Below, in pieces: positions 9,201 through 50,633 of a stretch of DNA of 64,000 bases; the stretch's first letter is position 1; the number at the start of each line of letters is the position of its first letter. The notes beneath the pieces are model-generated. The model ran no database searches, was not told where the DNA came from, and was given only the letters and a program-made list of their open reading frames with translations. The DNA comes from Hydrogenophilales bacterium (GTDB taxonomy: Bacteria > Pseudomonadota > Gammaproteobacteria > Burkholderiales > Thiobacillaceae): assembly GCA_023258975.1 (NCBI GenBank), contig JAHFRD010000006.1, positions 124,001 through 188,000 of the forward strand. The letters run 5' to 3'. Made by a program: the position numbers and the translations under genes.

Positions 9201-10104
9201 TTTCGGCAAGGTGGCGGTGATGTTCGGCGGCGATTCCGCCGAGCGCGAGGTCTCCCTCAAGAGCGGCGCGGCGGTACTGGCCGCCTTGCAGAGCCGCAGC
9301 GTCGATGCCCACGCCTTTGATCCGGCCGTGCGGCCGCTGGATGAGCTAAAGAAAGACGGCTTTCAGCGAGTATTCATCGCCCTGCATGGGCGCGGCGGCG
9401 AGGATGGCACGTTGCAGGGCGCGCTCACCCTGATGCGCATTCCCTATACCGGCAGCGGCGTGCTGGCCTCCGCGCTGGCGATGGACAAGTGGCGCAGCAA
9501 GCTGCTGTGGCAGGCCGCCGGGCTGCCGATACCCGATTACGCGGTACTGGATGAATCTTCCGATTTCGCGGCGGTGGCGGCGCGCCTGGGGCTGCCCCTG
9601 TTCGTGAAGCCGGCGCGCGAGGGTTCCAGCATCGGCGTCATCAAGGTGAAGCGGGAGGCCGATCTGCCGGACGCCTGGCGCGAGGCCGCGCGCCATGACG
9701 ATCTGGTGCTGGCGGAACAGGACATGAGCGGTGGCGAGTTCACCGTGGCGGTGCTTGGCGATGTGGCTTTGCCCTCGATCCGCATCGTGCCGGCCACGGA
9801 GTTCTACGACTACGAAGCCAAGTATTTCCGCGACGACACCCGCTATCTCTGTCCGAGCGGCCTCTCCGACGCGGCGGAAGCCGAGATGCGCGATCTGGCC
9901 TTGCGCGGATTCCGGGCGCTGGGCTGTCGCGGCTGGGCGCGGGTGGATTTCCTGCTCGATACGTCCGGCCGTCCCTATCTGCTGGAAGCCAATACCGCCC
10001 CCGGCATGACCGATCACAGCCTGGTGCCGATGGCGGCGCGCGCCTCGGGTCTGGCGTTTCCGGATCTGTGTGTGCGCATCCTGGAGTTGGCCCATGTGGA
10101 ATGA
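9193..10104 (+). CDS. ddl: D-alanine-D-alanine ligase
   Basis: Ddl joins two D-Ala using ATP to make the dipeptide used by MurF. The 303-residue ATP-grasp protein shows [15 protein letters not shown] near its start, [11 protein letters not shown] in the central ATP lobe, and the Mg-binding [15 protein letters not shown] at the C-terminus. The length is that of the short DdlB type usual in dcw clusters. The ATG overlaps the murB stop by eight bases and the stop overlaps ftsQ. Confidence 0.96.
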
Positions 10105-10861
10105 TCCCGTCGCCCTCAACCGCCTGAGTCGCCTGATTCTGGCCGCCACGCTGTTGTTCACGTTGTGGACCCTGGGGAGGTCGGCGGCGGAGAACCTGGC
10201 GCCGTTCGGGCGGGTGAGCGTGCTGGGCGCCAGCCAGGAGGAAACCAGGGTGGCGGCTAAGGCGGCGTTGGGCAAGCTGCGCGGTGGTTTTTTCGCGCTT
10301 GATCTGGATGCGACGCGCGCGGAATTCGAGCGGCTGCCCTGGGTGCGCCGCGCGGATATTCGCCGGGTCTGGCCGGGGCGTCTGGCCATCGTGCTGGAAG
10401 AGCAACGCGCGGCGGCGGCCTGGAACGACCGCGCCCTGCTCAATACCCACGGCGAGGTGTTCGCGGTGACGGCGATGGATAAATACCTCGGCCGCATGCC
10501 ACGGCTGTATGCCCCGGAAGGCACGGAGCGCGAAACGGCGCGACGCTATGGCGAGTTCGTCGCCGTGGCGCAGCCGCTCAACATGCGCGTGGAGCAGATC
10601 GTGGTGACGGCGCGCCAATCCTGGCGCGTGCGTCTGCATGGCAAGGGCGGTGGCGGCGTGCTGGTGGAACTGGGGCGCGAACATCTCTCCGAACGGCTCG
10701 CGCGCTTCGCCCGCTTCTATCCGCAGGCGGTGGTGACACTGGGGCCGATCGCGCGCGCCGACATGCGTTACCCCAATGGTTTCGCGGCCCAGATCAAGGG
10801 CAGTCCGGTGGGAGGCCCGTTCACGGGCCGAAGAATGGCTAAGGACGTGAGAAAGGCATGA
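10094..10861 (+). CDS. ftsQ: Cell division protein FtsQ with repeat-derived tail
   Basis: FtsQ is a bitopic membrane protein that links early and late divisome proteins through FtsB and FtsL. The 255-residue product has one membrane helix at about residues 11-30. A POTRA-type domain follows, with the typical [20 protein letters not shown] strand-turn pattern, then the larger beta domain. The last ~17 residues ([17 protein letters not shown]) correspond to DNA resembling the intergenic REP element near 30860-30911, so the C-terminus seems to have been replaced or extended by a repeat. It overlaps ddl upstream and ftsA downstream. Confidence 0.93.
10806..10852 (+). repeat. REP-like element in the ftsQ 3' end
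   Basis: GTGGGAGGCCCG..CGGGCCGAA followed by ATGGCTAAGGACG aligns with the reverse complement of 30850-30911 (GTAGGAGGCCCG..CGGGCCGAA, then ATGGGTAAGGACG), with a short deletion. The inner arms GGCCCG/CGGGCC can pair. Confidence 0.55.
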
Positions 10862-12096
10862 GCAAGATTCGGGAAAACAAGGATTTCATCGTCGGCCTGG
10901 ACATCGGCACGTCGAAGATCGTCGCTCTGGTGGCGGAGGCGCTGCCGGAAGGCGGTCTCAACATCATCGGCATGGGCCAGGCACCCTCGCGCGGCCTGAA
11001 GAAGGGCGTGGTGGTGGACATCGAGGCGACCGTCGCGGCGATTCAACGCGCCCTGGAAGAAGCCGAGTTGATGGCCAACTGCAAGATCACCCAGGTGTAT
11101 ACCGGCATCGCCGGCAGCCACATCAAGGCGCAGAACTCCAGCGGCATGCTGCCGATCCGCGACCGCGAGGTGAGCCAGTCGGACAAGGATCGCGTGGTGG
11201 AAATCGCGCGCGCCCTCAACATCCCGGCCGATCAGCAGGTGCTGCATGTGCTGCCGCAGGAATACATCATCGACGGCCAGGACGGGGTGCGCGAGCCGCT
11301 GGGCATGTCCGGCGTGCGCCTGGAGGTGAAGGTGCACATCGTCACCGGCGCCGTCTCCGCCGCCCAGAACATCGTCAAGTGCGTGCGCCGCTGCGGCCTG
11401 GAAGTGCAGGATCTGGTGCTGCAACCCCTGGCTTCGAGCAAGGCGGTGCTGAACGACGACGAGAAGGATTTGGGCGTCTGCCTGGTCGACATCGGCGGCG
11501 GCACCACCGACATCGCCGTCTACACGCGCGGCGCCATCCAGCATGTGGCGGTGATCCCCATCGCCGGCGACCAGATCACCAACGACATCGCCATGACCCT
11601 GCGCACGCCGACGCGCGAGGCCGAGGATCTGAAGATTCAGCACGGCGTCGCCTTGCGCCAGCTGGCCGACCCCAAGGAAATGATCGAGGTGCCGGGCATC
11701 GGCGAACGCGGCCCGAGGATGCTTTCCAAACAATTGCTGTCGGAAGTGATCGAGCCGCGCGCCGAGGAGTTGTACAGCCTGGTGCAGGCGGAACTGCGCC
11801 GCTCCGGCTTCGAGGAGCAGATATCCTCAGGCATCGTGCTGACCGGCGGCAGCAGCCAGATGGCGGGCATGGTGGAACTGGCGGAAGAGGTATTCCACAT
11901 GCCGGTGCGAGTCGGCGTGCCGGACTACATCGGCGGTTTTTCCGAGCGCGTGAAAAGCCCGCGCTTCGCCACCAGTGTCGGCCTCTTGCTGATCGGCCTG
12001 GACAAGCATGAAACCGATCAGGCGGCGCGCATCCAGGGCGCGAGTTTCAAGCAGATCCTGGAAAGGATGAAGGCGTGGTTTCAACAGAATTTTTGA
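10858..12096 (+). CDS. ftsA: Cell division protein FtsA
   Basis: FtsA is the actin-like ATPase that anchors FtsZ filaments to the membrane and activates septal synthesis. The 412-residue protein has VGLDIGTSKIVALV at the N-terminus, VDIGGGTTDIAVY in the middle, and GIVLTGGSSQMAG towards the end. A C-terminal amphipathic helix rich in Lys, Phe and Trp (FKQILERMKAWFQQNF) would bind the membrane. It overlaps ftsQ by ATGA and is followed, after 103 bases, by ftsZ. Confidence 0.97.
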   Translation: MSKIRENKDFIVGLDIGTSKIVALVAEALPEGGLNIIGMGQAPSRGLKKGVVVDIEATVAAIQRALEEAELMANCKITQVYTGIAGSHIKAQNSSGMLPIRDREVSQSDKDRVVEIARALNIPADQQVLHVLPQEYIIDGQDGVREPLGMSGVRLEVKVHIVTGAVSAAQNIVKCVRRCGLEVQDLVLQPLASSKAVLNDDEKDLGVCLVDIGGGTTDIAVYTRGAIQHVAVIPIAGDQITNDIAMTLRTPTREAEDLKIQHGVALRQLADPKEMIEVPGIGERGPRMLSKQLLSEVIEPRAEELYSLVQAELRRSGFEEQISSGIVLTGGSSQMAGMVELAEEVFHMPVRVGVPDYIGGFSERVKSPRFATSVGLLLIGLDKHETDQAARIQGASFKQILERMKAWFQQNF

Positions 12097-12199
12097 TTCG
12101 GGGACGGGCATGCCCGATGGGGAATGGGAGAGGGTTTTCTTCCCCAACGCGTTGTTCCGTATCCGTATTTTGTGTAAGTCACCGTAGGAGGGACGCAAC

Positions 12200-13390
12200 A
12201 TGTTGTTCGAACTGGAAGACCTGAATACCCAGGAAGCCGTGATCAAGGTCATCGGCGTGGGCGGCTGCGGCGGCAACGCCGTGGATCACATGATCGGCAA
12301 GGGCATGGCGGGTGTGGAATTCATCACCATCAACACCGACTCGCAGGCCCTGCGCCGCAACCGCGCGCCGGTGCAATTGCAGATCGGCAACTCGGCCACC
12401 AAGGGCCTCGGCGCCGGCGGCAAATGGGAAGTGGGGCGCGAGGCCGCGCTGGAGGACAAGGAACGCATCGCCGCCCTGATCGACGGCGCCGACATGCTGT
12501 TCATCGCCGCCGGCATGGGCGGCGGCACCGGCACCGGCGCCGCGCCGGTGGTGGCGGAAGTGGCGAAGGATCTGGGCATCCTGGCGGTGGCCGTGGTGAC
12601 CAAGCCCTTCGTGTTCGAGCAGAACAAGCGCATGCGTTCCGCCGAACAGGGACTGAAAGCCCTGTCCGAGCACGTCGACAGCCTGATCGTCATCCCCAAC
12701 GAGAAGCTGATCCAGGTGCTGGGCGGCAAGACCAAGCTGACCGATGCCTTTGTCGCCGCCAACGACGTGCTGCACAGCGCGGTCTCCGGCATCGCCGAGA
12801 TCATCAGCAACCCCGGCATGATCAACGTCGACTTCGCCGACGTGAAGACGGTGATGAGCGAGGTCGGCATGGCCATGATGGGTTCCGCCCTGGCCGAGGG
12901 CGAGGATCGCGCCCGCGTTGCCGCCGAGCAGGCCGTGGCCAGCCCGTTGCTGGAGAACGTGGACCTCAAGGGCGCGCGCGGCGTGCTGGTGAACATCACC
13001 TCCAACGACAGCCTGACCCTGGACGAGTACTACGAGGTGATGAACACCATCCAGAGCTTCGCCGCCGAGGAAGCCACCGTCATCGTCGGCACCGCGCTGG
13101 ACGACACGATGGGCGAGGGCCTGCGCGTGACCATGGTGGCGACCGGCCTGGGCAACCCGGTCAAGGCCGTCAAGAAACCGGAGATCCGCATCGTCGAACC
13201 GGTGATGATGCAGGCCACCGGCACGGGTGATGCGCGCCCTTACTCCGGAAACTACGATGTCGATCTGGATATTCCCACGACTTTTCGCAACAACACCCGC
13301 CGCAACAGTCAGGCGGCGGTCGAGGTGGCGAAGTCGGCGGGCATCGATACCCTGGACATTCCGGCCTTCCTGCGTAAACAGGCGGACTGA
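12200..13390 (+). CDS. ftsZ: Cell division protein FtsZ
   Basis: FtsZ is the tubulin-like GTPase that forms the division ring. The 396-residue protein has the tubulin signature GGGTGTGAAP near residues 107-116, VGGCGGNAVDHM at the N-terminus, and the NADF-like INVDFADVKTVM segment. The conserved C-terminal peptide DIPAFLRKQAD contacts FtsA and other partners. The ATG follows a strong AGGAGGG site. The 103-base gap from ftsA holds a weak hairpin (TGGGGAA..TTCCCCA), so ftsZ may be regulated separately. Confidence 0.98.
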   Translation: MLFELEDLNTQEAVIKVIGVGGCGGNAVDHMIGKGMAGVEFITINTDSQALRRNRAPVQLQIGNSATKGLGAGGKWEVGREAALEDKERIAALIDGADMLFIAAGMGGGTGTGAAPVVAEVAKDLGILAVAVVTKPFVFEQNKRMRSAEQGLKALSEHVDSLIVIPNEKLIQVLGGKTKLTDAFVAANDVLHSAVSGIAEIISNPGMINVDFADVKTVMSEVGMAMMGSALAEGEDRARVAAEQAVASPLLENVDLKGARGVLVNITSNDSLTLDEYYEVMNTIQSFAAEEATVIVGTALDDTMGEGLRVTMVATGLGNPVKAVKKPEIRIVEPVMMQATGTGDARPYSGNYDVDLDIPTTFRNNTRRNSQAAVEVAKSAGIDTLDIPAFLRKQAD

Positions 13391-13532
13391 TTCGATTCCG
13401 GATTTCGGATTTCGGAGCATGTGTGCCACAAGTCCTTGTTTTGTCGCGTGATTATCTCGTCCGGGCGAACTCCCTCCCGCCCGGGCGGGGTAACATGCGC
13501 GCATCCCGCACCGCACCAATCGAGTTCATTTC

Positions 13533-14447
13533 ATGATCCGCCAACGCACCATCAAATCCCTGGTACGCGCCACCGGCGTCGGCCTGCATACGGGCGCGCG
13601 GGTCAATCTCACCTTGCGCCCGGCCGCGCCCGGCAGCGGCATCTGGTTTTGCCGTACCGATCTGGTGGAACCGCGCGAGTTTCGGGTGACTCCGGAATCG
13701 GTGACCGATACCCGCCTGTGTTCCGCGCTGGAAGGCAACGGCGCCAAGGTGGCGACCGTCGAACACCTGATGTCCGCCCTCGCCGGGTTGGGCATCGACA
13801 ACCTCCACATCGACCTGGATGGCCCGGAAGTGCCCATCCTGGACGGCTCCGCCGCTCCTTTCGTGTATCTCCTGCAATCCACCGGCATCGAAGTCCAGAA
13901 TGCCGCCAAGCGCTTCATCCGGGTGAAATATCCGGTGCGGGTCGAGGATGGCGACAAATGGGCCGAGTTCACGCCGCACGAAGGCTATACCCTGGCCTTC
14001 AGGATCGACTTCGACCACCCCGTGTTCAAACATTCCGCGCGCGAAATCAAACTCGATTTCGCGCGCCAGTCCTACGTCCAGGAAGTGAGCCGGGCGCGCA
14101 CCTTCGGTTTCATGAGCGAGGTGGAATATCTGCGCAGCAATGGACTGGCTCTGGGCGGTAGCCTGGATAACGCCATCGTCATGGACGATTTCCGCGTGCT
14201 CAACAGCGACGGCCTGCGCTATGCCGACGAATTCGTGAAGCACAAGGTGCTGGACGCGGTGGGCGATCTCTACCTGGCCGGGCATCCCATCCTGGGCGCC
14301 TTCTCCGCCTACAAATCCGGCCACGGCCTCAACAACAAACTGTTGCGCGGCCTGCTGGCGGACGCCGGCGCCTGGGAATGGGCGGAGTTCAAGGATGACG
14401 CCAGCGTGCCCAAGGGGCTGCTCAACCTGCATCCCCTGTCCGCCTGA
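13533..14447 (+). CDS. lpxC: UDP-3-O-acyl-GlcNAc deacetylase LpxC
   Basis: LpxC is the zinc enzyme that commits UDP-acyl-GlcNAc to lipid A synthesis. The 304-residue length is typical. The zinc ligands appear in [15 protein letters not shown] near residue 75 and in [15 protein letters not shown] near 235. The catalytic SGHGLNN motif is near residue 262. It stands 142 bases after ftsZ, its usual place at the end of the dcw cluster. The last base of its stop is the first of the next small gene. Confidence 0.97.
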
Positions 14448-14632
14448 TGCTGGGTGTCCGCCTCCTCCTGGTTCTGGTCGGCATCTTCCTGGTCATCAGC
14501 CTGCTCGGCTACGCCGTCAGCCGCGACCCCCGCTGGCTCCGCTTCGCCGGACTGGGCCTGAAAGGCGGCCTGGCGTTGATTCTGCTGATCTTGCTGGTCT
14601 ATCTGGCGGAACGGCTGGTCATGGTGGTCTGA
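14447..14632 (+). CDS. Small two-helix membrane protein after lpxC
   Basis: This 61-residue product starts inside the lpxC stop codon (TGATG), so it is likely translationally coupled to lpxC. It has a first hydrophobic helix (about residues 3-22), a short charged stretch (SRDPRWLRF) and a second helix (about 35-58). I do not recognise a named family. Its place suggests a role, if any, in the envelope. It is a plausible real gene because the overlap and hydropathy are clean and nothing else occupies this stretch. Confidence 0.6.
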   Translation: MLGVRLLLVLVGIFLVISLLGYAVSRDPRWLRFAGLGLKGGLALILLILLVYLAERLVMVV

Positions 14633-14654
14633 GCGGCCGTCCCCTCGCCCCGTT

Positions 14655-15788
14655 TCACGCCATAACGGCCCCGAGCGCCTTCAGGCAGGCCTCCACATTC
14701 TCGCGCCGCGCGGAGGCGCCCATCAGGCCGATGCGCCAGATTTTTCCGGCCAGGGCGCCGAGGCCGGCGCCGATTTCCAGGTTGAATTCATTGAGCAGGC
14801 GGGCGCGCGCGGCGGCATCGTCGATGCCGACGGGCAGGGCCACCGAGTTGAGTTGCGGCAGGCGCTCGCCCCCCGGCACCACGAAAGCCAGTCCCAGGCC
14901 TTCCAGCCCCGCCTTGAGCCGTTCGTGCATGGCGCGATGCCGTGCCCAGGCGGCGTCCAGGCCTTCCTCGGCGAGGATCACCAGCGCCTCGTGCAGGCCG
15001 TAGAGCGGGTTGATCGGCGCGGTGTGGTGATAGGTGCGTTTGCCTTCGCCACTCCAGTAGCCGAGCACCAGGTTGAGATCCATGAACCAGCTCTGCACCG
15101 GGGTCTTGCGCGCACGCACCTTGGCGAGTGCCTTTTCCGAGAAACTCACCGGCGACAGGCCGGGGGTGCAGGACAGGCATTTCTGGCTACCGGAATAGGC
15201 GGCGTCGATGCCCCACTGGTCGAGCAGGACGGGGGTTCCGCCGAGCGAGGTGACACAGTCCATGAGGGTCAGGGCGCCGTATTTTCGGGCGATGGCGGTC
15301 AAAGCGGCGGCGTCGGACTGGGCGCCGGTGGACGTTTCCGCATGCACGAAAGCAAGGATTTTTGCGTTGGGGTTGGCCTGGAACGCGGTGTCCACCTTGT
15401 CCGGATCAACCGCCCGGCCCCAGGCATCCTCGACCGGAACGGGGATGCCGCCGCAGCGCTTCACGTTCTCCAGCATGCGGCCGCCGAACACGCCGTTGAC
15501 GCAGACGATGACGGTGTCGCCCGGCTCCACCAGATTCACGAAACAAGTCTCCATGCCCACGGAACCCGGGCCGGAAACCGGAAAAGTAAGCCGGTTTTCA
15601 GTCTGAAAGGCGTAGCGGAGCAGGGTCTTGGTCTGCTCCATCATGTCCGTGAAAGCCGGGTCGAGATGGCCGATGGTGGGGCGTGCCATCGCGTCGAGGA
15701 TGCGTCGCGGTACATCGGACGGGCCGGGGCCCATGAGGATGCGGTGGGGCGGCTGGAAGGAGGAAATGGCGGGAGCAGGCTGGGTCAT
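14655..15788 (-). CDS. Class V aminotransferase (alanine-glyoxylate / serine-glyoxylate type)
   Basis: This 377-residue PLP enzyme begins with the family's substrate-binding [13 protein letters not shown]. It has a [10 protein letters not shown] segment, the HAETSTGAQ motif, MDCVTSLGG with the PLP-contacting aspartate, and [13 protein letters not shown] with the Schiff-base lysine. It probably moves an amino group from alanine or serine to glyoxylate; the donor cannot be told from sequence. The ATG at 15788 follows AGGAAA. It is convergent with the dcw cluster and divergent from the Rossmann protein at 15900. Confidence 0.88.
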
Positions 15789-15899
15789 GGGATTTCCTGT
15801 TGCGTGGACAGGCCGCGATTCTATGGGCTTGGGCCGTGTGCAGACAGGCCGAGGGCGGGTTCGGCCGATAGAATCCGGCCCTCGAACGGAGGATTGGGC

Positions 15900-39802: not shown

Positions 39803-40945
39803 TTACTTAACGGTTTCCAGCACCTTCCAGGCGCCGTCCTTGACCTCATACAGGGTCACGGCGCCGCCGGTGGTGTCGCCCTTGGCGTCGAACTTGATCG
39901 GGCCGCTGACGCCTTGCAGGTCGGTCTTCGGCAGTTCCGCCAGCACCTTGGCCGGCACGGCGGAATTGGCGCGCTTCATGGCGTCCACCAGGACATTGAC
40001 GGCATCGTAGGCGTAGGGCGCGTAGAGCTGGATCGGGCCGTGCTTGGCCTCGTAGCGCTTGCGGAAGTCCGGCCCCCCGGGCATCGAGTCGATCGGCAGG
40101 CCGGGCGAGGAGGCCACCACGCCCTCGGCGTCGGCACCCGCCAGTTTCAGGAAATTGGCGTTCTGCATACCGTCGCCGCCCAGCAGCCTGGCGTTCAGGC
40201 CCAGGCGCTTCAACTGCTTCGCCATCGGCCCACCCTGCGGATCCATGCCGCCGAAGAACACCAGATCCGGTGACTTGCCCTTGATGCTGGTGAGGATGGC
40301 GTTGAAATCGGTGGCGCGGTCGTTGGTGAACTCGTGCGCGACGATCTCGCCGCCGGCAGCCGTCGCGGCCTTCTCGAACTCGTCGGCCAAGCCCTGTCCG
40401 TAGGCGGTGCGGTCGTCGATGATGGCGATTTTTTTGGCGCCCATCTTGCCCACCGCGAACCGGCCCAACGCCTTGCCCTGTTGGGCGTCGTTGGCCATTA
40501 CCCGCCAGGCGGTGTTGTAGCCCTGCGCGGTGTAGGCCACGGCGGTGGCGGAGGGGGAAATCTGGGGAATGCCGGCGTCGTGGTAAATCCGGGAAGCCGG
40601 GATGGTGGTGCCCGAGTTCAGGTGGCCGATCACCGCGACCACGCCGGCATCCACCAGCTTCTGCGCGACGATGGTGGCGGCCTTGGGTTCCGCCTGGTCG
40701 TCCTCGCCGAGGAGTTCCAGTTTCACCTTCCTGCCGCCCAGCATCAGGCCCTTGGCGTTGATTTCATCCACCGCCAGGCGGGCGCCGTTTTCGTTGTCCT
40801 TGCCGATGTGGGTTTGCGGGCCGGTCAGGGGGGCGACGGAACCGATCTTGATGACATTGCCGGCGTCCTCGGTCTTGCCGCAGCCGGAAAGGGAAAACGC
40901 CAGCGCGAGGGAGAGCGCGGAAATCGCGAACTTGTGGAATGTCAC
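39803..40945 (-). CDS. livK: Branched-chain amino acid binding protein LivK, lipoprotein form
   Basis: The 380-residue type I periplasmic binding protein begins IKIGSVAPLTGPQTHIGKDNENGARLAVDEIN after its signal, the standard LivJ/LivK start. RATDFNAILTSIKGKSPDLVFFGG is also typical. The signal ends FSLSGC, a lipobox with Cys at residue 22, so it seems to be a lipid-anchored variant instead of a free periplasmic protein. As first gene of the operon it needs the highest expression, and the hairpin just after its stop may protect its mRNA. Confidence 0.93.
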   Translation of the reverse strand: MTFHKFAISALSLALAFSLSGCGKTEDAGNVIKIGSVAPLTGPQTHIGKDNENGARLAVDEINAKGLMLGGRKVKLELLGEDDQAEPKAATIVAQKLVDAGVVAVIGHLNSGTTIPASRIYHDAGIPQISPSATAVAYTAQGYNTAWRVMANDAQQGKALGRFAVGKMGAKKIAIIDDRTAYGQGLADEFEKAATAAGGEIVAHEFTNDRATDFNAILTSIKGKSPDLVFFGGMDPQGGPMAKQLKRLGLNARLLGGDGMQNANFLKLAGADAEGVVASSPGLPIDSMPGGPDFRKRYEAKHGPIQLYAPYAYDAVNVLVDAMKRANSAVPAKVLAELPKTDLQGVSGPIKFDAKGDTTGGAVTLYEVKDGAWKVLETVK

Positions 40946-41207: not shown

Positions 41208-42056
41208 CTACTGGCCGCCCTGCTTGTGCTCGATGCCGATGGCTTCCGAAATCACCGGATACTGGCCCGGCTTCACTTCCTGCACGAAGTTGGAACCGGC
41301 GCTTTCATCCTTGCGGAACACCCGCGCGGTGGCCGCCTGGCCGGCTTGCAGGGAGCGCGGGTCGCGCACGGTGAGGGTGAGCTGGTCGCGGCCGACATCG
41401 CCGGCGAATTGCAGATACTCCTGTTTGCCCAGGGGCAGCAGGATTTCCTTGCCGGCGGGGATGGAAATCGCCTGGCCGGGGGCGGCCGGGTAGATCTGGC
41501 GCTGCGCACCCTTGGGCGTGATGTTGCCCAGCACCACCACCGCGTCGAAGGTGGAGAGCACCCGCAGCTTGAAGCGCTCGCCGGTGGTGAAGCCGTCGGC
41601 GACGGCGCGGAAGCCGGTGGGCTTGCCGTTTGCATCGACAGCGACCAGGGCGACGTTCACGCCCTGGTAGTTCTCGCCGTCCTTGCCGGTCTTCAGTGGC
41701 GTTTCCGGGGTGCCGAGCGCGGCATTGGGGGCGGCGTTGGCGCTGACGCCGCCGAGCACGATGTCCTTGCCGGCCAGGTACCCGTTGAGGTTGACGATGA
41801 CGGCCAGCGCGGCGTTGCCGGCCAGGTATTCCAGGGAGTCTTCCTTGTAGGTGGCGGCGATCTTCTTCTTCACCCAGTCCGAAAAGAAATCGAATACCAC
41901 CGGTGCGACCAGTTTGATCAGGATGCCCCAGACGAACTTGCCCTCGGCCTCCTGTTGTGGCGGTGTCGCGGTGGCGGGTGGCGTGGCCTGCGCCAGGCTG
42001 GCCGTGCTGAACGTGAGCGCGGTCAGGGCGGCGACGAGTTTGCTAGAGCGGGGCAT
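41208..42056 (-). CDS. Secreted DUF4384-like protein downstream of the caspase gene
   Basis: The 282-residue protein has a signal peptide (MPRSSKLVAALTALTF, cut near SLAQA) and a Pro/Ala/Thr linker. A hydrophobic amphipathic stretch (FVWGILIKLVAPVVFDFFSDWVKKKI, about residues 40-65) follows. Its C-terminal half has the DUF4384-like pattern FTTGERFKLRVLSTFDAVVVLGNITP, IYPAAPG, IPAGKEILLP. The upstream caspase-like protein has the same kind of domain. The ATG at 42056 follows GGAGA and lies 11 bases after the caspase stop, so the two are one operon. No enzymatic motif is seen; a partner or substrate role is a guess. Confidence 0.72.
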   Translation of the reverse strand: MPRSSKLVAALTALTFSTASLAQATPPATATPPQQEAEGKFVWGILIKLVAPVVFDFFSDWVKKKIAATYKEDSLEYLAGNAALAVIVNLNGYLAGKDIVLGGVSANAAPNAALGTPETPLKTGKDGENYQGVNVALVAVDANGKPTGFRAVADGFTTGERFKLRVLSTFDAVVVLGNITPKGAQRQIYPAAPGQAISIPAGKEILLPLGKQEYLQFAGDVGRDQLTLTVRDPRSLQAGQAATARVFRKDESAGSNFVQEVKPGQYPVISEAIGIEHKQGGQ

Positions 42057-42067
42057 GGCGGGTCTCC

Positions 42068-43861
42068 TTATTCGACTTCTTCCAGGGTGATGAGATCGGC
42101 GCCGTAAGCGTCGGAACAGGCGGCGACCACTTCCAGGTTGCGCTTGGCGCCGGTTTTCCCACAATCCGGCTCCACGGCATGCGCGGAGGTGGCGGAGACG
42201 AACTGGATGTCGCGCGCGCTCATGGCCGAGGTGGCGAGCACCGAGAATGGCCCGGCCGGTTTCATGCCCAGCGCGGCGAAATCACGCGGTGTGTCGCTCA
42301 CCACCGCCAGCAGATGGTCGCGTCCGGCCGGCCCGCCGGCGCGGATGCCCCAGCCGGGACGCGGCAATTGCCAGGTTTCCCCGGCCAGGATGTGGTTGCG
42401 GTCGTCCTTCCTGTTGGGAAACAGCAGATCGAAGCTCTTGCCGTCGCTGCCCACCATGAGCAGATAGACATAACCTTCGTGGCTGCTGGAGAGGCTGAAG
42501 CGCACTCGATCCTGCCCGGCCTTGTAGGCTGGTTTGTCGGCGCTCAGACGCACCACGCGGCGGTCGTCGCGGTTGGCGTGGATGTCCTTGAGCGCGGCGA
42601 CGGCGGAAGGCGCGACGACCGGGACGGGTGGAATACCGGATGTTCCCGCCGACGTCGCGATGGGATCGGGTTCGGGCGTGGCCAGCACCATCCCGGTATT
42701 TCCGGTCAGCGCCAGGTGATGCGCGCCGAAGCGGCTGTTGCCGGCGGCCTGGCGTTCGATCCTCGGTTGCGCGCAGGCGGCCAGTTCCGCGACCGAGAGG
42801 CCGGAGGAGGCATCGCGGTCGCGCGCCGCGCCGGAGAGGCAATCGAGCCAGGCCAGGGTGGCGAGGCCGCCGCGACCGCCGTCGTCGAGCGCCACCTCGT
42901 CGTCGCGCGCGGCGGCGATGTGGATGAAGTTGAGTTTGCCCTCGCCGGGTTGGGCTTCCCGCAGGCCGCGCACCAGGACATTGCTGGGGCGCTCGCAGGT
43001 TTCCGCGCCTGACTTCGCCCAGAACTTGCCGCTCAGGTTGCCGCTCGCAACGGTGCGGGTGGTGGCGCCACCGGCATGGCAGGCATCGAGGAACACCACC
43101 AGACGACGCGCCTTGGCGGCGATGCGTTGCAGGCGATCCTGCAATTCGTCGTCCATCAAGGCTTGCGCGTCCGCCGTCACCAGCGCCTCGGCGCAACGCG
43201 CGGCGCGGCCGTCGAAGGCGTTGAGGCGAGTGCCGTGGCCGGAGTAATAGAGGAACACTTCGTCGTTGGGCATCACCCGCGATTCCAGGCCATCGAGCGC
43301 GGCGCGCATCCCGGCCAGGTCGAGGGCGGCGTCGCGCAGCACCGTGGTATTGGCGTCCGGAACTCCCAGCGCGCGCGCCATCAGCGCGGCGCTGTCGGCA
43401 TCGTGGGCGACGCCGGGCAAGGGCGGCACGCCGCCAGCGTAGGCGCCGATGGTAAGAATCAGCGCGTGCGCGGAGGGGCGCGGCGGCGGCAGGCCACGGA
43501 AGCCGGCGACGGCGACGATGCGCTGGTTTCCTCCCGCATCGGCGCGGAACAGTTCCGCCACGTTGCCGGCGGCGGGTAGCGCCGATCGGGCTTCCCGCAG
43601 GGCCAGCACGCGCAGCCAGCCTTCCTTGCCATCGGCCCGCACCCGGCTCCAGCCGCCGCGCCGCTCCAGTACGTCCACGCGCGCGTCGGCCGCCAGCGGC
43701 GCGACCTCGGTTGCCAGGCCGTCGGGCGCGGCCAGTAGCGGCTGCGCGCGGATCAGCGTGGCGGGGCTGCTGGCCGAGGCCATCACGGGCCAGGCGAACA
43801 AGCCACATAGGCAGCCCCACAGGCAACCCCATAGGTACGACGAAATTCGCTTCGAATGCAT
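42068..43861 (-). CDS. Exported caspase-like (C14) protease with SH3 and DUF4384 domains
   Basis: The 597-residue protein has a signal peptide (about residues 1-30) and an SH3b-like domain (about 40-90, ERRGGWSRVRADGKEGWLRV). A caspase/metacaspase fold runs about 128-390, with the catalytic dyad His209 (YYSGHGTR) and Cys261 (FLDACHAGG) both present. A Pro-rich linker and a DUF4384 domain (about 440-525, GYVYLLMVGSDGKSFDLLFPN) follow. Bacterial caspase homologues usually cut after Arg/Lys and take part in signalling or cell death; here the signal peptide puts it in the periplasm. It is divergent (83 bases) from a TPR-CHAT gene, itself a caspase relative. Confidence 0.9.
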   Translation of the reverse strand: MHSKRISSYLWGCLWGCLCGLFAWPVMASASSPATLIRAQPLLAAPDGLATEVAPLAADARVDVLERRGGWSRVRADGKEGWLRVLALREARSALPAAGNVAELFRADAGGNQRIVAVAGFRGLPPPRPSAHALILTIGAYAGGVPPLPGVAHDADSAALMARALGVPDANTTVLRDAALDLAGMRAALDGLESRVMPNDEVFLYYSGHGTRLNAFDGRAARCAEALVTADAQALMDDELQDRLQRIAAKARRLVVFLDACHAGGATTRTVASGNLSGKFWAKSGAETCERPSNVLVRGLREAQPGEGKLNFIHIAAARDDEVALDDGGRGGLATLAWLDCLSGAARDRDASSGLSVAELAACAQPRIERQAAGNSRFGAHHLALTGNTGMVLATPEPDPIATSAGTSGIPPVPVVAPSAVAALKDIHANRDDRRVVRLSADKPAYKAGQDRVRFSLSSSHEGYVYLLMVGSDGKSFDLLFPNRKDDRNHILAGETWQLPRPGWGIRAGGPAGRDHLLAVVSDTPRDFAALGMKPAGPFSVLATSAMSARDIQFVSATSAHAVEPDCGKTGAKRNLEVVAACSDAYGADLITLEEVE

Positions 43862-43944
43862 GTGATTCTCCCCGCGAGTCGCTAAAGTCTAGTCTTCCGC
43901 TCAGGTATTGTTGCCAGGAATTTTCATTCCAAGGAAAACGCTTC
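43862..43944. promoter_or_regulatory. 83-bp divergent promoter region between caspase and CHAT genes
   Basis: The only non-coding DNA between the two divergent protease genes must hold both promoters. It is AT-richer than its surroundings and contains GGAAT-TTTC-ATTCC (43917-43930), a small inverted repeat. No clear -35/-10 pair was identified. Confidence 0.5.
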
Positions 43945-46836
43945 ATGACACGCCCATTCCTCCGCGTATTGCTGTGTGCCTGTTGCCTGTCCGCGCCGCT
44001 CGCCTGGGGCAACGCCGAGGCGGTCAAGTCCTTGCTGGAGAAAGCGCAACAGCTCAATCAGAGCGGCCAACCGATTGAAGCAGAACCGCTGGCGCGCCAG
44101 GCGATCGCCCTGGCCGAATCGTTCAGCGGGCCGACTGGCGCGCGCGAGAAGCTGCTGGCCGTCGCCCGGCAGCGACTGGGCGTCTCACTACGCCTGCAGG
44201 GCCGCCATACCGAGTCGGAACCGGTATTGCGCGAGGCCTTGCGCGGGGTGGAGCAGGCGCATGGCCATGCTTCGCGGCTGGCGGTCAAGACCGAGATCCA
44301 GTTGGGCCTGGCCATTCTCGGCCAGGGCCGCTATGCCGAGGCCGACAAGCCGTTGCGTGACGCTGTGCTGCGAACCCCCGAGCCGAAGGATGCCGAGACG
44401 CTGGAAGCCTGGCTGGACGCGCGCACACGCCTGGGGCGCTTGCAAATTCTGGCGGGAAATTACGCCGAAGCCGAGAGCCTGTTGAACACGGTGCTGGTGA
44501 AAAGCGAAGGCGTCGGCGACGTGGGCGTTTCTCGCTGGCGGCAAAATGCCAACATGGCGCTGGCCCTGCTGCGCATGCGCCAGGGGCGAACCGATGCGGC
44601 GGAGCCCTATGCCCGCGCCGGCGCGGAACTGGCCGCGACCTCCTGGGGTTCGCGCCATGCCGCGACGGCGGAAGCTTATGACCAACTTGGCCAGGTGCTG
44701 CTCAAACTCGGTCGCCTGGATGAAGCGGAAGACTGGCTGCGCAAGGCGGCCGCCCTATCCGAGCCGTTGATCGGCCTGAGTTACGGCGCGGCCTCGAAAC
44801 CGTTCCGCAACCTGGGGCAGTTGCTGGAGAAAAAAGGCCGGACGGCCGAGGCGGAAGCCCTGTTCAACAAGGCCATGTCGGCCGCCGAAAAAGGCGCCAG
44901 CAGCGAGGTTCTGGCGCAAACCCTGCACGCGCGGGCGCGCTTTCTCGCGCGCCAGGGCCGCCCGGAGGCCGCGCAACCGGTGTATGACCGCGCGATCACG
45001 CAGGCTGATCGCCTGTTCACCCTTTCACGCGGGCTGGAGGAAGCCGCGCGCGAAAACATGGTGGCCTTCCTGCGCCCGATCTACAGCGAGGCGGTGAGCA
45101 ACCGGGTGGAACTGGACGCGAAGCTGCCCGGCAAGGGCCATGACCACGCCGCCCTGGCCGATGTTTCCCGCACCCAGAGCCGGCTGTTCACCGAGATGCT
45201 GCGCGCCGCCGACGTGGCGCGCCTGGCCGGCGACGACGCCTTCGTGAAACTCAAGGCGAGCCGCGATACGGCCCTGTCGCGCCTCAATGAATTGCGCCAT
45301 CGCTTCACCTTGACCGCGCGCATGGATGAAGCCGGCGAAGAGGCGCAGCCGGCCAGGCCCATCGACGACCCCTTCGTGCTGGAACGCTGGCGGCGCGAGG
45401 TGGCGGGATTGCGGGGCGACATCGCCCGGGAGGAACGCGCGCGCGATGCGGCGGAAACCCGCCTGTGGCGCGACTTCCCGCGCTTCATGGAACTGGAGGA
45501 GCCGCGCCCGGTGAGCGTGGACGACCTGCGGCAACGCTGGCTGCGCCCCGACGAAACCCTGCTTGTCTATTTCCGCCTGCAACACCAGTTGCTGATCTTC
45601 CTGGTCAGCCGCGAGGACTTCCGCCTGTTGCGCGTGCCGGTGGAAATGGAGGAAATCGACCGTCTGGTGGCGGCCGCGCGGCTGCCGATGGAAAGCGGCG
45701 GCCGCCTGGATGGGCTTGCCAGGCTCGATCCCGGCGTACTCAACCGCCTCTACGAACTGTTGTTGAAACCGGTCGAGGCGCAACTGCCGGCGGGGCGGCA
45801 CCTGCTGACGGTGGGCGACGGGCCGCTCTACACCCTGCCCTTTGAAATGCTGGTGGCGCGCTGGAACGAGGCCGAGCGCAAAGCCTTCGCGGCGGCGCGC
45901 GCCCGCGACCTCTCCGAATACGGCCGCCTCGACTATGCCGGAGCGAAGTGGCGCTTCTCCTACCTGCCCAGCCTGGCGGCCCTGGCCATCCAGCGCGGAG
46001 AACAGAAGGGCAGGGTGGAGTTCGAACAATCGCTGATCGCCTTCGCCGACCCGGTGTTCGAACGCGCCGACGCCACACCCGGCGCCGCCACCCGCTCACT
46101 GCTGGCGGAACTCGGCGCCTCGCGCGGCGGCCAGGTCGGCATTCCACGCCTGCCGGAAACCGCCGACGAGGTGGAGTCGGTGGCGGCCATTCTGGGTGGC
46201 AAGCATGAAATATTCCTGCGCGAAGCTGCCCAGGAAACCCGGGTCAAACACGGCAACCTGAGTGGCGCGCGTTACCTGCACTTCGCCACCCACGGTTTGC
46301 TGGGCGGCGAATTCGCCATGCTCAAGGGCTACGCGTCCGGCGCGGAAGTGGCCAAGGACGGCCGCACCCGCAACCTGGTCGTGGTGGAAGACGAAGAGGC
46401 CGCGCCCGTGGCCGCGCCGGCCAAGGGCCAGCCGGCGCTGGTGCTCACCCTGGTGGGCGACCTCGCCGGCGAGGATGGCTTGTTGACCATGAGCGAGGTG
46501 ATGGGACTGAAGATGAACGCCGACCTGGTGGTGCTCTCGGCCTGCAACACGGCGGGCGAACGGGTCGAGGCGCGCAACGGCGAAGGCTTCGCCGGCCTCA
46601 CCCGCGCCTTCATGCACGCCGGCGCGCGCGGCCTGCTGGTATCGCACTGGAGCGTGGAAAGCCTGGCCACGCGCGACCTGATCACCGACTTCTTCCGCCG
46701 CCGGAAAGCCGGCACCGCCACCCCGGAAGCCCTCGCGGCGGCGCAGGCCGACCTGCGCGCCAGCCGCGACGCACGGCTAAACCTGTCGCGCGCGCATCCC
46801 TTCTTCTGGGCGCCGTTCGTGCATGTGGGGGATTGA
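43945..46836 (+). CDS. Exported TPR-CHAT protease-like protein
   Basis: The 963-residue protein has a signal peptide ([22 protein letters not shown]). Several tetratricopeptide repeats follow (about residues 25-340, repeated pattern A..YxxAExLxxxAL), then a helical linker, and a CHAT domain from about residue 620 to the end. The CHAT dyad is intact: His783 in [11 protein letters not shown] and Cys867 in [14 protein letters not shown] proteases are separin/caspase-like; cytoplasmic ones act in Craspase and in gasdermin activation, but this one is predicted to be exported. The ATG at 43945 follows AAGGA; the longer frame upstream overlaps the caspase gene and is rejected. The divergent caspase gene suggests joint function. 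Confidence 0.92.
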
Positions 46837-46847
46837 ACGCGAGACAT

Positions 46848-47057
46848 TCAGGCATCGGAAGCCGGCTTGGGCTGATCCGCTGCCGCCTCGGCATCCAGCC
46901 CCCAATCCTGCCAGTCCTCACCCAGCATCTCGGCCGGGTGCTCGGTACGTCCGGAGCCATTGCCGCAGATCAGCGCATCCGCCGGGCAATATTTATCGCA
47001 GCCCCAGCAGATGCGCTCGGGGTGCCTGGGGTTCAGTGGGAACTTTCTTTTCGCCAT
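46848..47057 (-). CDS. DUF3079 small cysteine-rich protein
   Basis: The 69-residue protein begins [24 protein letters not shown] and continues [19 protein letters not shown], the DUF3079 pattern with four cysteines (CWGC, C, C) that may bind a metal. Function is unknown. The ATG at 47057 is preferred to an earlier one because known members start at this point. It is convergent with the CHAT gene, 11 bases away. Confidence 0.85.
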
Positions 47058-47164
47058 GCGCGAGACACTACCGCGTTTCAGCATGCCGCCCAAGGGAGGG
47101 TATCCTTGCGCCCCCTCTTCATCCTCTCGGGCCCGGATTGCGGCGAGTCCGGGGATTTACAAGC

Positions 47165-48091
47165 ATGGCCGATTCCGAACTCCACAAGGGCGCCGCCAAG
47201 ACGGCGCGCATTCCGATCAAGATCGTGCCCAAGCCGCGCATGAAGCTGCCGGCGTGGATCAAGGCTCAGGCGCCCTCGGCGCCGGAGGTGATCGAGCTCA
47301 AGGCGATCCTGCGCGAGGCGAAACTGCACACCGTGTGCGAGGAGGCGTCCTGCCCCAACCTGGGCGAGTGCTTCCGCCACGGCACCGCCACCTTCATGAT
47401 CCTGGGCGATCTGTGCACGCGGCGTTGTCCGTTCTGCGATGTCGGCCACGGCAAGCCGTTGCCGCCCGATGTGGAGGAGCCGCGCCATCTCGCGGAGACG
47501 CTGGCGGCGATGCGCTTGAAGTATGTGGTCATCACCAGCGTGGACAGAGACGACCTGAAGGATGGCGGCGCCGGGCATTTCGTTGCTTGCATCCGCGCTG
47601 CCCGCGCGGCGTCGCCCGGCACCCGCATCGAAATCCTCACCCCGGACTTTCGCGGTCGTCTCGATGTCGCGCTCGACATTCTCGCCGCCGATCCGCCGGA
47701 CGTGATGAACCACAACCTGGAAACCGTGCCGCGCCTGTACAAGGCCTGCCGCCCCGGCGCCGATTACGCGCATTCGCTGCGGCTGTTGCAACGCTTCAAG
47801 GAACGCTGTCCGGGCGTGCCGACCAAGTCCGGAATCATGCTGGGCCTGGGCGAAACCGATGCGGAGGTGTTGAACGTGCTGCGCGACCTGCGCGCGCATG
47901 CGGTGGACATGCTCACCATCGGCCAGTACCTGCAACCCTCCGGCCAGCATCTGCCGGTGGAGCGTTTCGTGCCGCCGGCACAATTCGTTGAGTTTGAACG
48001 GTTGGCGCTGGAGATGGGCTTCCGGAATGTCGCCAGCGGGCCGATGGTGCGCTCCAGTTATCACGCGGATCGGCAGGCGGCGGGCGTTTGA
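47165..48091 (+). CDS. lipA: Lipoyl synthase
   Basis: LipA is a radical SAM enzyme that inserts two sulfur atoms into protein-bound octanoyl groups. The 308-residue protein has the auxiliary cluster Cys58, Cys63 and Cys69 ([12 protein letters not shown]) and the SAM cluster Cys84, Cys88 and Cys91 (CTRRCPFC). It also has [15 protein letters not shown] and the C-terminal VRSSYHAD, whose serine binds the auxiliary cluster. No lipB lies beside it here, although the two are often paired. Confidence 0.97.
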
Positions 48092-48175: not shown

Positions 48176-49681
48176 TCAGCGCCGTCCCCCCAGAATCGAC
48201 CCCAACACACCGCGAATGATGGCGCGGCCGACCTGGCTGCCGATGGCGCGGGCGGCGCTCTTGGCCAGTGTCGCGCCGACCCCTTCGCGGCGCCCGCCGC
48301 CGCCGAACAGGTCGCCCAGCATGCCGCCGAGTCCGCCGCCCGAGTTCGCCGGCTGCGGGGGCCGCGCGCGTGGCGCGGCCTGTGCCGGGGCGGGCGCGGC
48401 GCGGCTATTGAGGATCTCGTAGGCTGATTCCCGATCCACCGCTTGTTCGTAAACACCGGCCAATAGCGAGGTGGCCATCCATTGTTTGCGGGTGGCGGCG
48501 TCGATCGGGCCGATCCGGCCGCCGGGCGGGATGATGAAGGCGCGCTCCACGACACCAGGGCGGCCTTTTTCATCGAGACAGGACACCAGTGCCTCGCCCA
48601 CGCCCAGTTCGGTGATGGCGGCGACCTCATCCAGATCGGGGTTGTCGCGCATGGTTTCGGCGGCGGCCTTCACCGCTTTCTGGTCGCGCGCGGAGAAGGC
48701 GCGCAGGGCGTGCTGCACCCGGTTGCCGAGTTGGCCCAGCACCTTGTCCGGCACGTCGGCCGGGTTCTGGGTGACGAAAAATACGCCCACGCCCTTGGAG
48801 CGGATCAGGCGCACCACCTGTTCGATCTTGTCCACCAGGGCGGCGGGGGCGTCGTTGAACAATAGATGCGCTTCGTCGAAGAAGAACACCAGTTTGGGCT
48901 TGTCCAGGTCGCCCGCTTCGGGCAGATGTTCGTAGAGCTCGGAAAGCAGCCAGAGGAGGAGGGTGGCATATACCTTCGGCGCCTGCATCAGCCTGTCGGC
49001 AGAGAGGATGTTGATGACGCCGCGGCCGGCGTCGTTCTGGATCAGGTCGTCGATGTTCAGCATCGGTTCGCCGAACAGTTTGTCGCCTCCCTGGGTTTCC
49101 AGAGTGAGCAGGCCGCGCTGGATGGCGCCGATGCTGGCGGCGGAGAGGTTGCCGTATTCGGTGGTGAAGGTTTTCGCGTTCTCGCCCACATATTGCAGCA
49201 TCGCGCGCAGGTCTTTCATGTCCAGCAACAACAGGCCGTTGTCGTCGGCCACCTTGAACACCAGTTGCAATACGCCGGCCTGGGTTTCGTTCAGTTCCAG
49301 CATGCGCGAGAGCAGCAGCGGCCCCATGTCGGAAATCGTGGCGCGCATCGGGTGGCCCGCGCTGTCGTCCCCCTCGCCCATGACATCCCAGAACGTGACC
49401 GGACATGCCTGGTGCCGGAAATCGTCCAGGCCCAACTTCGCCACCCGTTCCACCACCTTGGCGTTGCCGCCGCCTGCCTGGGAAACGCCGGAGAGATCGC
49501 CCTTCACGTCGGACATGAAGCAGGGCACACCGATGTTGGAGAACCGCTCGGCCAGCATTTGCAGGGTCACCGTCTTGCCGGTGCCGGTGGCGCCGGTGAT
49601 GAGGCCGTGGCGATTGGCCATCTCGGGTAGCAGGAATATCTCGGCGTGGTCGTTCTTGGCGATCAGCAGGGGGGCGGTCAT
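48176..49681 (-). CDS. HerA-like ATPase (DUF853 / YjgR family)
   Basis: The 501-residue ATPase has Walker A GATGTGKT at residues 30-37 and Walker [13 protein letters not shown]. The [26 protein letters not shown] arginine-finger region follows. A Gly-rich tail ([18 protein letters not shown]) ends in a hydrophobic stretch. YjgR proteins are related to the HerA/FtsK pumps; their role is not settled. The ATG at 49681 gives the family's usual start; the open frame upstream is translated REP DNA. Confidence 0.9.
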
Positions 49682-49964: not shown

Positions 49965-50633
49965 ATGACGCCATCACCGGAAATGCGGGCTCTGCTGGAT
50001 GAAATCCGCGCCGAGGCGCGCGAAACCCGGCAATACACCGGTCGCGCCGCGCTCTCCGAGCGGGTGCTGGAGGCTTTCGCGGCCGTGCCGCGCCATGCCT
50101 TCCTGCCCGATGTGCTGAGGCCCGCCGCTTACGCCAATCGCCCCTTGCCCATCGGCCACGAGCAGACCATCTCGCAGCCCTACATCGTCGCCCTGATGAC
50201 CGATCTGCTCGACCCCGAAGCCGGCGACGTGATTCTGGAGATCGGCACCGGCTGCGGCTACCAGGCGGCGGTGCTGGCGAAGCTGGTGCAGCGGGTCTAC
50301 AGCCTGGAGATCGTCCCCGAGCTGGCGGAACAGGCGAGTGAACGCCTGCGCCGCCTGGGCTATGACAATGTCGAAGTGGCTCATGGCGACGGCCACGCCG
50401 GCTGGCCGCGACACGCGCCCTATGACGCCATCATCGTCACCGCCGCCGCGCCTGATATTCCTCCGGCATTGATCGAACAACTCAAGCCCGGTGGCCGTCT
50501 GCTCATTCCGGTCGGTGGACGCTACAGCGGCCAGGAATTGCTTCTGGTCGAGAAAGACCGGCACGGCCGGGTGAGCCGAAAGAGCGTCCTCCCGGTAATA
50601 TTCGTGCCGCTGACCGGAATCTCGGAATCATGA
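49965..50633 (+). CDS. pcm: Protein-L-isoaspartate O-methyltransferase
   Basis: Pcm methylates isoaspartyl residues of aged proteins using SAM and so starts their repair. The 222-residue protein has PRHAFLPDVLRPAAYANRPLPIGHEQTISQPYIVALM, the hallmark of the family, then the SAM site VILEIGTGCGYQAAVLA and VTAAAPDIPPALIEQLKPGGRLLIPVG. The ATG at 49965 is the best start. It is followed after 83 bases by the hibernation factor gene. Confidence 0.95.
   Translation: MTPSPEMRALLDEIRAEARETRQYTGRAALSERVLEAFAAVPRHAFLPDVLRPAAYANRPLPIGHEQTISQPYIVALMTDLLDPEAGDVILEIGTGCGYQAAVLAKLVQRVYSLEIVPELAEQASERLRRLGYDNVEVAHGDGHAGWPRHAPYDAIIVTAAAPDIPPALIEQLKPGGRLLIPVGGRYSGQELLLVEKDRHGRVSRKSVLPVIFVPLTGISES

Follow-up and report, generated by a model that had tools for sequence, protein, structure and literature searches.

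Bacterial caspase-like and CHAT proteases have been studied mainly as cytoplasmic effectors, Craspase being itself cytoplasmic, and in the gasdermin systems a protease stands beside a small protein with a hydrophobic stretch. Here we analysed a window of 64,000 nucleotides (the whole stretch of DNA, from a Hydrogenophilales bacterium, contig JAHFRD010000006.1, positions 124,001 to 188,000) in which a gene for a caspase-like protein (CASP), a small gene with a DUF4384-like product (SMALL) and a gene for a TPR-CHAT protein (CHAT) lie together, all three with products that look exported. Some related bacteria keep this trio together, in places by genes of envelope lipid transport and signalling, which suggests an envelope protease module. 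We tentatively propose, at slightly less than an even chance, that the trio is an accessory cassette whose products carry out regulated proteolysis, either in the periplasm or on the cell surface, and we prefer envelope proteolysis to phage defence as its role. The locus has the following parts:

42068-43861, minus strand: CASP, 597 amino acids (aa), stop included; signal peptide-like N-terminus, SH3-like region, caspase domain and DUF4384
41208-42056, minus strand: SMALL, 282 aa, stop included; exported-looking DUF4384-like partner, ATG at 42056
43945-46836, plus strand: CHAT (TPR-CHAT), 963 aa, stop included; ATG at 43945, H783/C867
43862-43944: divergent spacer between CASP and CHAT, 83 bp

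The cassette resembles the gasdermin systems in pairing a protease with a small protein that has a hydrophobic stretch; unlike their small protein, SMALL is DUF4384-like and exported-looking and carries the stretch at its N-terminus, and no gasdermin match was found for it in Pfam (E up to 0.1) or by profile search of the PDB. Like the TPR-CHAT protein of Craspase (Csx29 of type III-E CRISPR), CHAT has TPR repeats and, after them, a CHAT domain that carries a His-Cys pair; unlike that protein, it has a signal-peptide-like N-terminus. The available text of PMC9729208 and PMC9935389 has Csx29 bound to Cas7-11. A Craspase identity was rejected, since RAMP (PF03787) had no match in the source assembly and no CRISPR-like array was found in positions 30000-58000 of the window, where only a tRNA-like repeat pair occurred.

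CASP shares with prokaryotic orthocaspases and metacaspases the p20 fold, the His/Cys dyad and, for some of them, likely export, and some of these proteins also carry DUF4384 or are pseudo-enzymes (PMC3501461 and PMC6426788, in their available text). That text reports a C-terminal DUF4384 in QC pseudo-orthocaspases fused to trypsin (PMC6426788), describes a metacaspase-CHASE2 fusion in Trichodesmium and, already in 2012, suggested the export of some caspase homologues from likely signal peptides (both PMC3501461). A pairing with an exported TPR-CHAT protein and a DUF4384-only partner is not described in the available portions of these two papers, nor is the trio in those of PMC8195603 and PMC10907252. 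The initial annotation knew of no published system of this form, and indeed our search of the open-licence literature found no description of an exported CASP-SMALL-CHAT trio. If tied to envelope signalling and lipid transport, the trio would give the caspase and CHAT folds an extracytoplasmic job, DUF4384 would gain a testable role, and the 2012 idea of exported prokaryotic caspases would become directly testable in a small three-gene cassette.

Linkage of the three genes across genomes

Among the 100 genomes of the family set, full-length CASP (counted at E < 1e-90) was found in seven, namely G000 (the source genome of the window, a 3.63-Mb assembly), G252, G265, G273, G256, G226 and G249, and CHAT (counted at E < 1e-20) was likewise found in seven. 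Six are shared, so that CASP and CHAT occur together in 6 of the 8 family genomes holding either (hypergeometric P 4e-8 over the 100 genomes and P 4.6e-4 when only the 23 genus genomes are taken, both uncorrected for kinship), and SMALL was present in four, all within those six. SMALL was met in 1/200 order genomes and 1/369 class genomes, each time the source genome, and was therefore rejected as a widespread family.

Scanning the genome collection for two short CASP peptide patterns, a search that can miss relatives lacking them, gave 112 stretches; 15 of them encode a CASP relative, all 15 were used, and seven are known genus loci, which with the window makes 16 CASP genes from 15 genomes. 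Genes in relatives were called by a custom codon-score script that makes wrong calls, among them antisense frames over CASP (window, L051, L053) and over SMALL (L063), and CASP, SMALL and CHAT in relatives were therefore positioned by tblastn and reading of open reading frames (ORFs). CHAT lies within about 11 kb of CASP in 8/16 loci and SMALL in 9/16 (for L061 as a match of only 34%, 7.5 kb from CASP), and all three genes do so in six (window, L049, L050, L055, L060, L063), or in seven if the split locus of G256 is counted. Sphaerotilus mobilis DSM 10617 and Ideonella livida TBM-1 each carry a CASP relative and gave no CHAT match. The initial annotation had made conserved linkage in other genomes one of two points on which its proposal would stand or fall, and both this linkage and the family-wide co-occurrence were found in some relatives.

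The trio occurs in three arrangements: that of the window, a collinear SMALL-CHAT-CASP order in Gallionella (L055) and Ca. Ferrigenium straubiae (L060), and, in a gammaproteobacterial metagenome-assembled genome (MAG; L063), CASP, SMALL, a WD40/caspase-like gene, two lipoprotein-like genes and CHAT. Since the genes are kept in differing orders, the linkage survives rearrangement. Absence of a partner means little in L052 and L056, which are cut close to CASP, and in L054, which has only 2.8 kb before CASP. The G256 locus is split over two contigs and has an extra ORF between the CASP start and CHAT (L042 320-1066), Uma2-like by eye. In L063 the gene between SMALL and CHAT (11511-14765) encodes 1085 aa with 14 WD40 stretches and a C-terminal caspase-like part (29% in tblastn).

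Compared with G252, the ratio of nonsynonymous to synonymous substitution rates (dN/dS) was 0.23 for CASP, 0.16 for SMALL and 0.21 for CHAT, reaching up to 0.46 (CASP, CHAT) and 0.43 (SMALL) against the most distant relatives of the genus. Purifying selection acts on all three genes, and the locus is more than a chance assembly.

The layout of CASP and SMALL agrees with the predicted operon, the two lying on the same strand with the SMALL start 11 bases behind CASP; reading the window on both strands places AAGGAG before ATG 42056, which is most likely the start of SMALL. The 318-aa small ORF annotated earlier starts at a TTG inside CASP, and SMALL is likely the 282-aa product from ATG 42056. 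Divergence of CASP and CHAT by 83 bases was confirmed with ATG 43945, and the corresponding gap measures 72-114 bp in G265, G252, G273 and G226, depending on the chosen starts. A conserved promoter in this spacer was rejected, as no sigma-70-like consensus site was found in it and the spacers align weakly.

Active sites, domains and predicted export

CASP matches Peptidase_C14 (PF00656) at 66.9 bits and metacaspase structures by profile (best E 8.5e-14), and the dyad that had been assigned to His209 and Cys261 is present and intact, with H209 in YYSGHGT and C261 in LDACHAGG; by its p20 match and His-Cys dyad the protein is a predicted member of caspase family C14 (orthocaspase/metacaspase-like). 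With 39.8 bits against a threshold of 140 bits it is not an EACC1-associated caspase (NF047832). Residues 446-525 match DUF4384 (PF14326) at 59.5 bits (cut-off 27 bits), and an SH3_4 match of 22.4 bits falls just below its cut-off of 24.1. The initial annotation was right in coordinates and catalytic residues but missed the SH3-like region and the DUF4384 of CASP; it had placed DUF4384 in SMALL, where the match is weak (19.4 bits, below the cut-off), whereas the strong match is in CASP. D154 and D259, aligned with Asp residues of metacaspases, would form an acidic S1 pocket that binds a P1 Arg or Lys; both are kept in 16/16 CASP genes. When CASP is divided into its three parts, dN/dS is lowest in the caspase part (0.155 vs G252).

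The SMALL profile aligned with the DUF4384 region of CASP at E 5.7e-4 in hhalign, with a probability of only 30%, and no convincing PDB relative was found (best E 0.82). A hydrophobic stretch, KF[VIA]WG.., follows the signal peptide and is kept in 8/10 rows, and Lys40, just before it, is kept in nine. This stretch had been described as amphipathic, which did not hold: its helical moment was reached by 21-80% of shuffles and stood out in none of the 10 rows, and an amphipathic effector helix was rejected.

CHAT has TPR repeats followed by a CHAT domain (PF12770, 185.5 bits), and no other CHAT match was found in the source assembly. The proposed His783/Cys867 dyad is correct with ATG 43945 and intact, H783 and C867 or their equivalents being kept in 6/6 full-length rows, and by these features the product is a predicted CHAT-domain protein. 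A phmmer search of the PDB (E up to 0.01) returned 14 kinesin light chains and one design, and no TPR-CHAT protein.

Signal peptides were scored crudely, without SignalP, as a 10-residue hydrophobic core near the N-terminus with a mean hydropathy of 1.9-3.5. The N-termini of relatives vary in sequence, yet such a core was present in 15/16 CASP rows (the exception, L041, is a contig end), 9/10 SMALL rows (the exception, L056, has an ambiguous start), 7/7 CHAT rows of A3 and 6/7 further CHATs (the exception being L060a as called). An A-x-A cleavage site was not detected in all rows, and the CASP of L044 has no net charge before the core. A lipobox pattern matches window CASP and CHAT as well as the CHATs of L055, L060b and L069, so that lipoproteins are possible. 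Counting cysteines from residue 31 onward, the non-catalytic Cys of CASP are even in number in 16/16 rows (six in 14, four in two), SMALL has none in 10/10 rows, and the catalytic Cys is the only one in 4/6 full-length CHAT rows, with one more in the other two. The 55 called window genes average 0.87 Cys per 100 aa; measured against this, CHAT shows a deficit (8.2 expected; P 0.0025, for a single gene picked after looking), CASP is not Cys-poor (7 vs 5.0 expected), and the zero of SMALL is not significant (P 0.10). The Cys pattern fits an oxidising compartment, short of proof. From the signal-peptide-like N-termini together with these counts we infer export of all three proteins, in agreement with the earlier view that none of them is cytoplasmic.

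Envelope neighbours, proposed function and alternatives

A CHASE2 gene lies within 10 kb of CASP in 6/16 loci: with a cyclase domain in L055, L056 and L059, with GGDEF and EAL in L058, alone in L054, and by whole-genome search in L060. MlaD was confirmed near CASP in L054 and L055, and MlaE in L054 and, 8 kb away, in L060; neighbour labels without a Pfam match, including FecR-like and ABC-ATPase-like, were assigned by eye. Taking all CHAT genes of the 15 genomes, which were selected for carrying CASP, 6/20 lie within 10 kb of CHASE2 (0.32 expected), and 3/17 within 5 kb (0.12 expected, P 2.3e-4) once the three CHAT genes of the L055 and L060 clusters are excluded.

A second CHAT of G252 (L067) directly precedes an SH3-M48 fusion and a CHASE2 gene, and MlaE lies opposite. 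The source genome itself has a cluster on another contig (L048, G000:C22, 2330-9659) with SH3, M48, CHASE2-cyclase and PDEase_II-like genes opposite MlaE and MlaD, and no CHAT; this is a predicted envelope cluster carrying domains to make and break a cyclic nucleotide. These clusters are like the cassette in that their SH3 is related to that of CASP and that, in L067, a CHAT lies inside, and the SH3-M48 fusion parallels the SH3-caspase of CASP; unlike the cassette, the cluster of the source genome has no CASP. Residues of about 20-125 of CASP match SH3 proteins of the SH3-M48-CHASE2 cyclase cluster, own genome included, and 93/100 family genomes have some CASP match, the best matches being mostly to the SH3 region and the rest to the full length or the caspase part (list read by eye). 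Given the shared SH3 region, CASP resembles an SH3-protease in which the caspase stands where M48 does in SH3-M48. The neighbours in relatives (CHASE2 cyclases, MlaE/MlaD, M48, SH3, ShlB and two-partner-secretion (TPS) proteins) strengthen the case for a predicted envelope role.

In the envelope reading, whose export step and all later steps we infer from sequences and neighbourhoods, CASP, SMALL and CHAT would all be exported, probably by Sec. In CHAT, the TPR part would sense or scaffold an envelope client, with the CHAT domain as the constant catalytic part, while the SH3-like domain would hold CASP at the wall or envelope, where active CASP would cut after Arg or Lys. SMALL and the DUF4384 of CASP may be a shared docking or substrate-presenting part, the conserved hydrophobic stretch laying SMALL on the membrane. 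The output would feed envelope maintenance. In other lineages it would do so jointly with CHASE2-cyclase signalling and lipid transport of the Mla type, and some genomes may join it with wall hydrolases or two-partner-secreted surface proteins.

Several observations weigh against this reading. The window locus has no CHASE2 or Mla neighbour, so that the context comes from relatives and another contig of the source genome; none of the CASP-CHAT loci of the genus has a CHASE2 match on its contig, and L057 and L062 have no CHAT, SMALL or CHASE2 near CASP. To speak of 'envelope homeostasis' is guilt by association. The argument from Cys is in part post hoc, a low Cys content is shared by other window genes, and the gene caller miscalled CASP. 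The patchy, rare distribution (SMALL in 4/100 family and 1/369 class genomes) resembles that of defence genes. Finally, the His-Cys dyad, intact in 13/16 CASP genes, is lost in three: in L040 (G273) by C to G, next to a CHAT with an intact dyad; in L043 (G256, contig 35) by H to Y and C to S; and in L058 (G249), where both residues are gone. In the tree, several forks of which are weak, the three genes fall in separate positions, and L058 has a very long branch. The change in G273 concerns a single codon (GGC), and as this MAG is 58% complete, it may be an assembly error. Catalysis is therefore not always needed, and we rejected an obligatory caspase catalysis.

An anti-invader module in the periplasm is unlikely in our view; in it, TPR-CHAT would sense a phage, a contact-dependent toxin or another invader and switch on CASP, and the cell would be killed or blocked by SMALL or by some other cleaved protein. 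Patchy presence, with an empty site and a relic within one genus, would agree with this module, as would the available text of papers in which TPR-CHAT proteins and caspases are known or proposed defence effectors (PMC9729208, PMC9935389; for DGR conflict systems PMC10907252). In PADLOC, CASP matches the generic 'caspase' PDLC02987 at E 4.6e-13, and SMALL and CHAT have no match. Against it, CHASE2 cyclase, Mla and M48 genes are among the neighbours in relatives, and no phage or plasmid record holds CASP at the cut-offs used (1e-10, 1e-20). Moreover, the PADLOC matches among 4/10 flanking window genes seem generic (two liv-type ATPases matching mad3, mad8 and others, a HerA-like gene at 48179-49681, and an ORF at 49974-50630 with a partial mad2 match), and no complete system is apparent. 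A known anti-phage system was rejected, the matches being weak, generic or below cut-off, with no complete gene set.

Caspase-like peptidases also serve as processing enzymes of secreted toxins, and CHAT and CASP might trim or release secreted substrates such as two-partner-secretion proteins, the cassette being the processing part of a secretion pathway. In L059 a CASP relative lies behind ShlB and a TPS-domain protein, and in L067 an ORF of unknown type precedes the CHAT gene; but both dyad residues are lost in the L059 copy, and inspection by eye of the genes called in the window, L050, L051 and L053 showed no ShlB or TPS gene. We rate this maturation role as somewhat less probable than the anti-invader module. 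The L059 row (875-15851) reads ShlB, TPS-domain protein with DUF5650 repeats, caspase (Y/S), GAF-HD protein and CHASE2-cyclase.

A more specific form of the envelope reading is a two-protease switch, in which an envelope signal triggers the exported TPR-CHAT protease, which licenses the exported SH3-caspase to cut SMALL after Lys40 and so free a membrane-acting DUF4384 protein, wired to CHASE2-cyclase and Mla in Gallionella-type bacteria. If true, it would be the first extracytoplasmic caspase-CHAT pathway, as far as the open-licence literature shows. We regard this switch as doubtful, with a small chance of being right; the loss of the caspase dyad in 3/16 genes, once beside an intact CHAT, weighs against a cascade such as the initial annotation put forward, with CHAT and caspase activating one another.

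A mostly structural module, in which SH3 and DUF4384 would make CASP and SMALL into envelope scaffolds, the caspase fold would be a binding domain on its way to a pseudo-enzyme and CHAT would be the only protease, is improbable: the scattered dyad losses, the H and C kept in 6/6 CHATs and the existence of pseudo-orthocaspases (8.6% of bacterial orthocaspases, according to the available text of PMC6426788) would suit it, but most CASP genes keep both dyad residues and all keep D154/D259, the caspase part is the most constrained part of CASP by dN/dS, and L058 sits on the long branch that decay would predict.

Accessory site and further caspase genes

The genes flanking the cassette, all outside it, are:

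39803-40945, minus strand: LivK-like periplasmic binding protein, left flank
46848-47093, minus strand: DUF3079, right flank
about 47165-48091, plus strand: lipoyl-synthase-like gene (lipA), right flank

The livK gene was located in 20 of the 23 genus genomes, and its flanks were inspected over up to 1.5 kb on each side. SMALL and CASP stand beside it in three (G000, G252, G265), and 15/20 sites show neither the cassette nor lipA. In G254, livK is directly joined with DUF3079 and lipA with no cassette between, an empty site that rests on this one genome, and in G167 a relic beside livK keeps residues 219-277 of SMALL only (41.5% identity). The cassette is accessory, with one empty site and one relic among the relatives. 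The ORF before the G167 relic (L081 3-1023) is tyrosine recombinase-like by eye. In G273 and G226 the CASP-CHAT pair lies on contigs other than that of livK. A plasmid-borne cassette was rejected on the plasmid records (as DNA, and as CASP protein at E up to 1e-20), and a phage-borne one on the phage records (CASP protein, E up to 1e-10), no match being found in either.

A further row of the source genome (L025, G000:C35, 4674-14723) has 684-aa and 307-aa proteins of unknown type, an exported-looking caspase, two SMALL relatives and a 1374-aa M23, SLT and Kazal protein whose gene begins 44 bases further on (as called). This row is like the cassette in having exported-looking caspase and SMALL relatives; unlike it, the row has no CHAT match, and its caspase part shows a similarity of only 29% to CASP over 150 columns. 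Extra exported-looking caspases also lie by the CASP relatives of L055 (13729-15303 and 19574-21178) and L060 (1883-3964 and 11580-14012), and in L061 (7934-17920) more of them are clustered with the CASP relative. One of the extra caspases of L055 has a C-terminal FGE-sulfatase domain, and the others look alike by eye.

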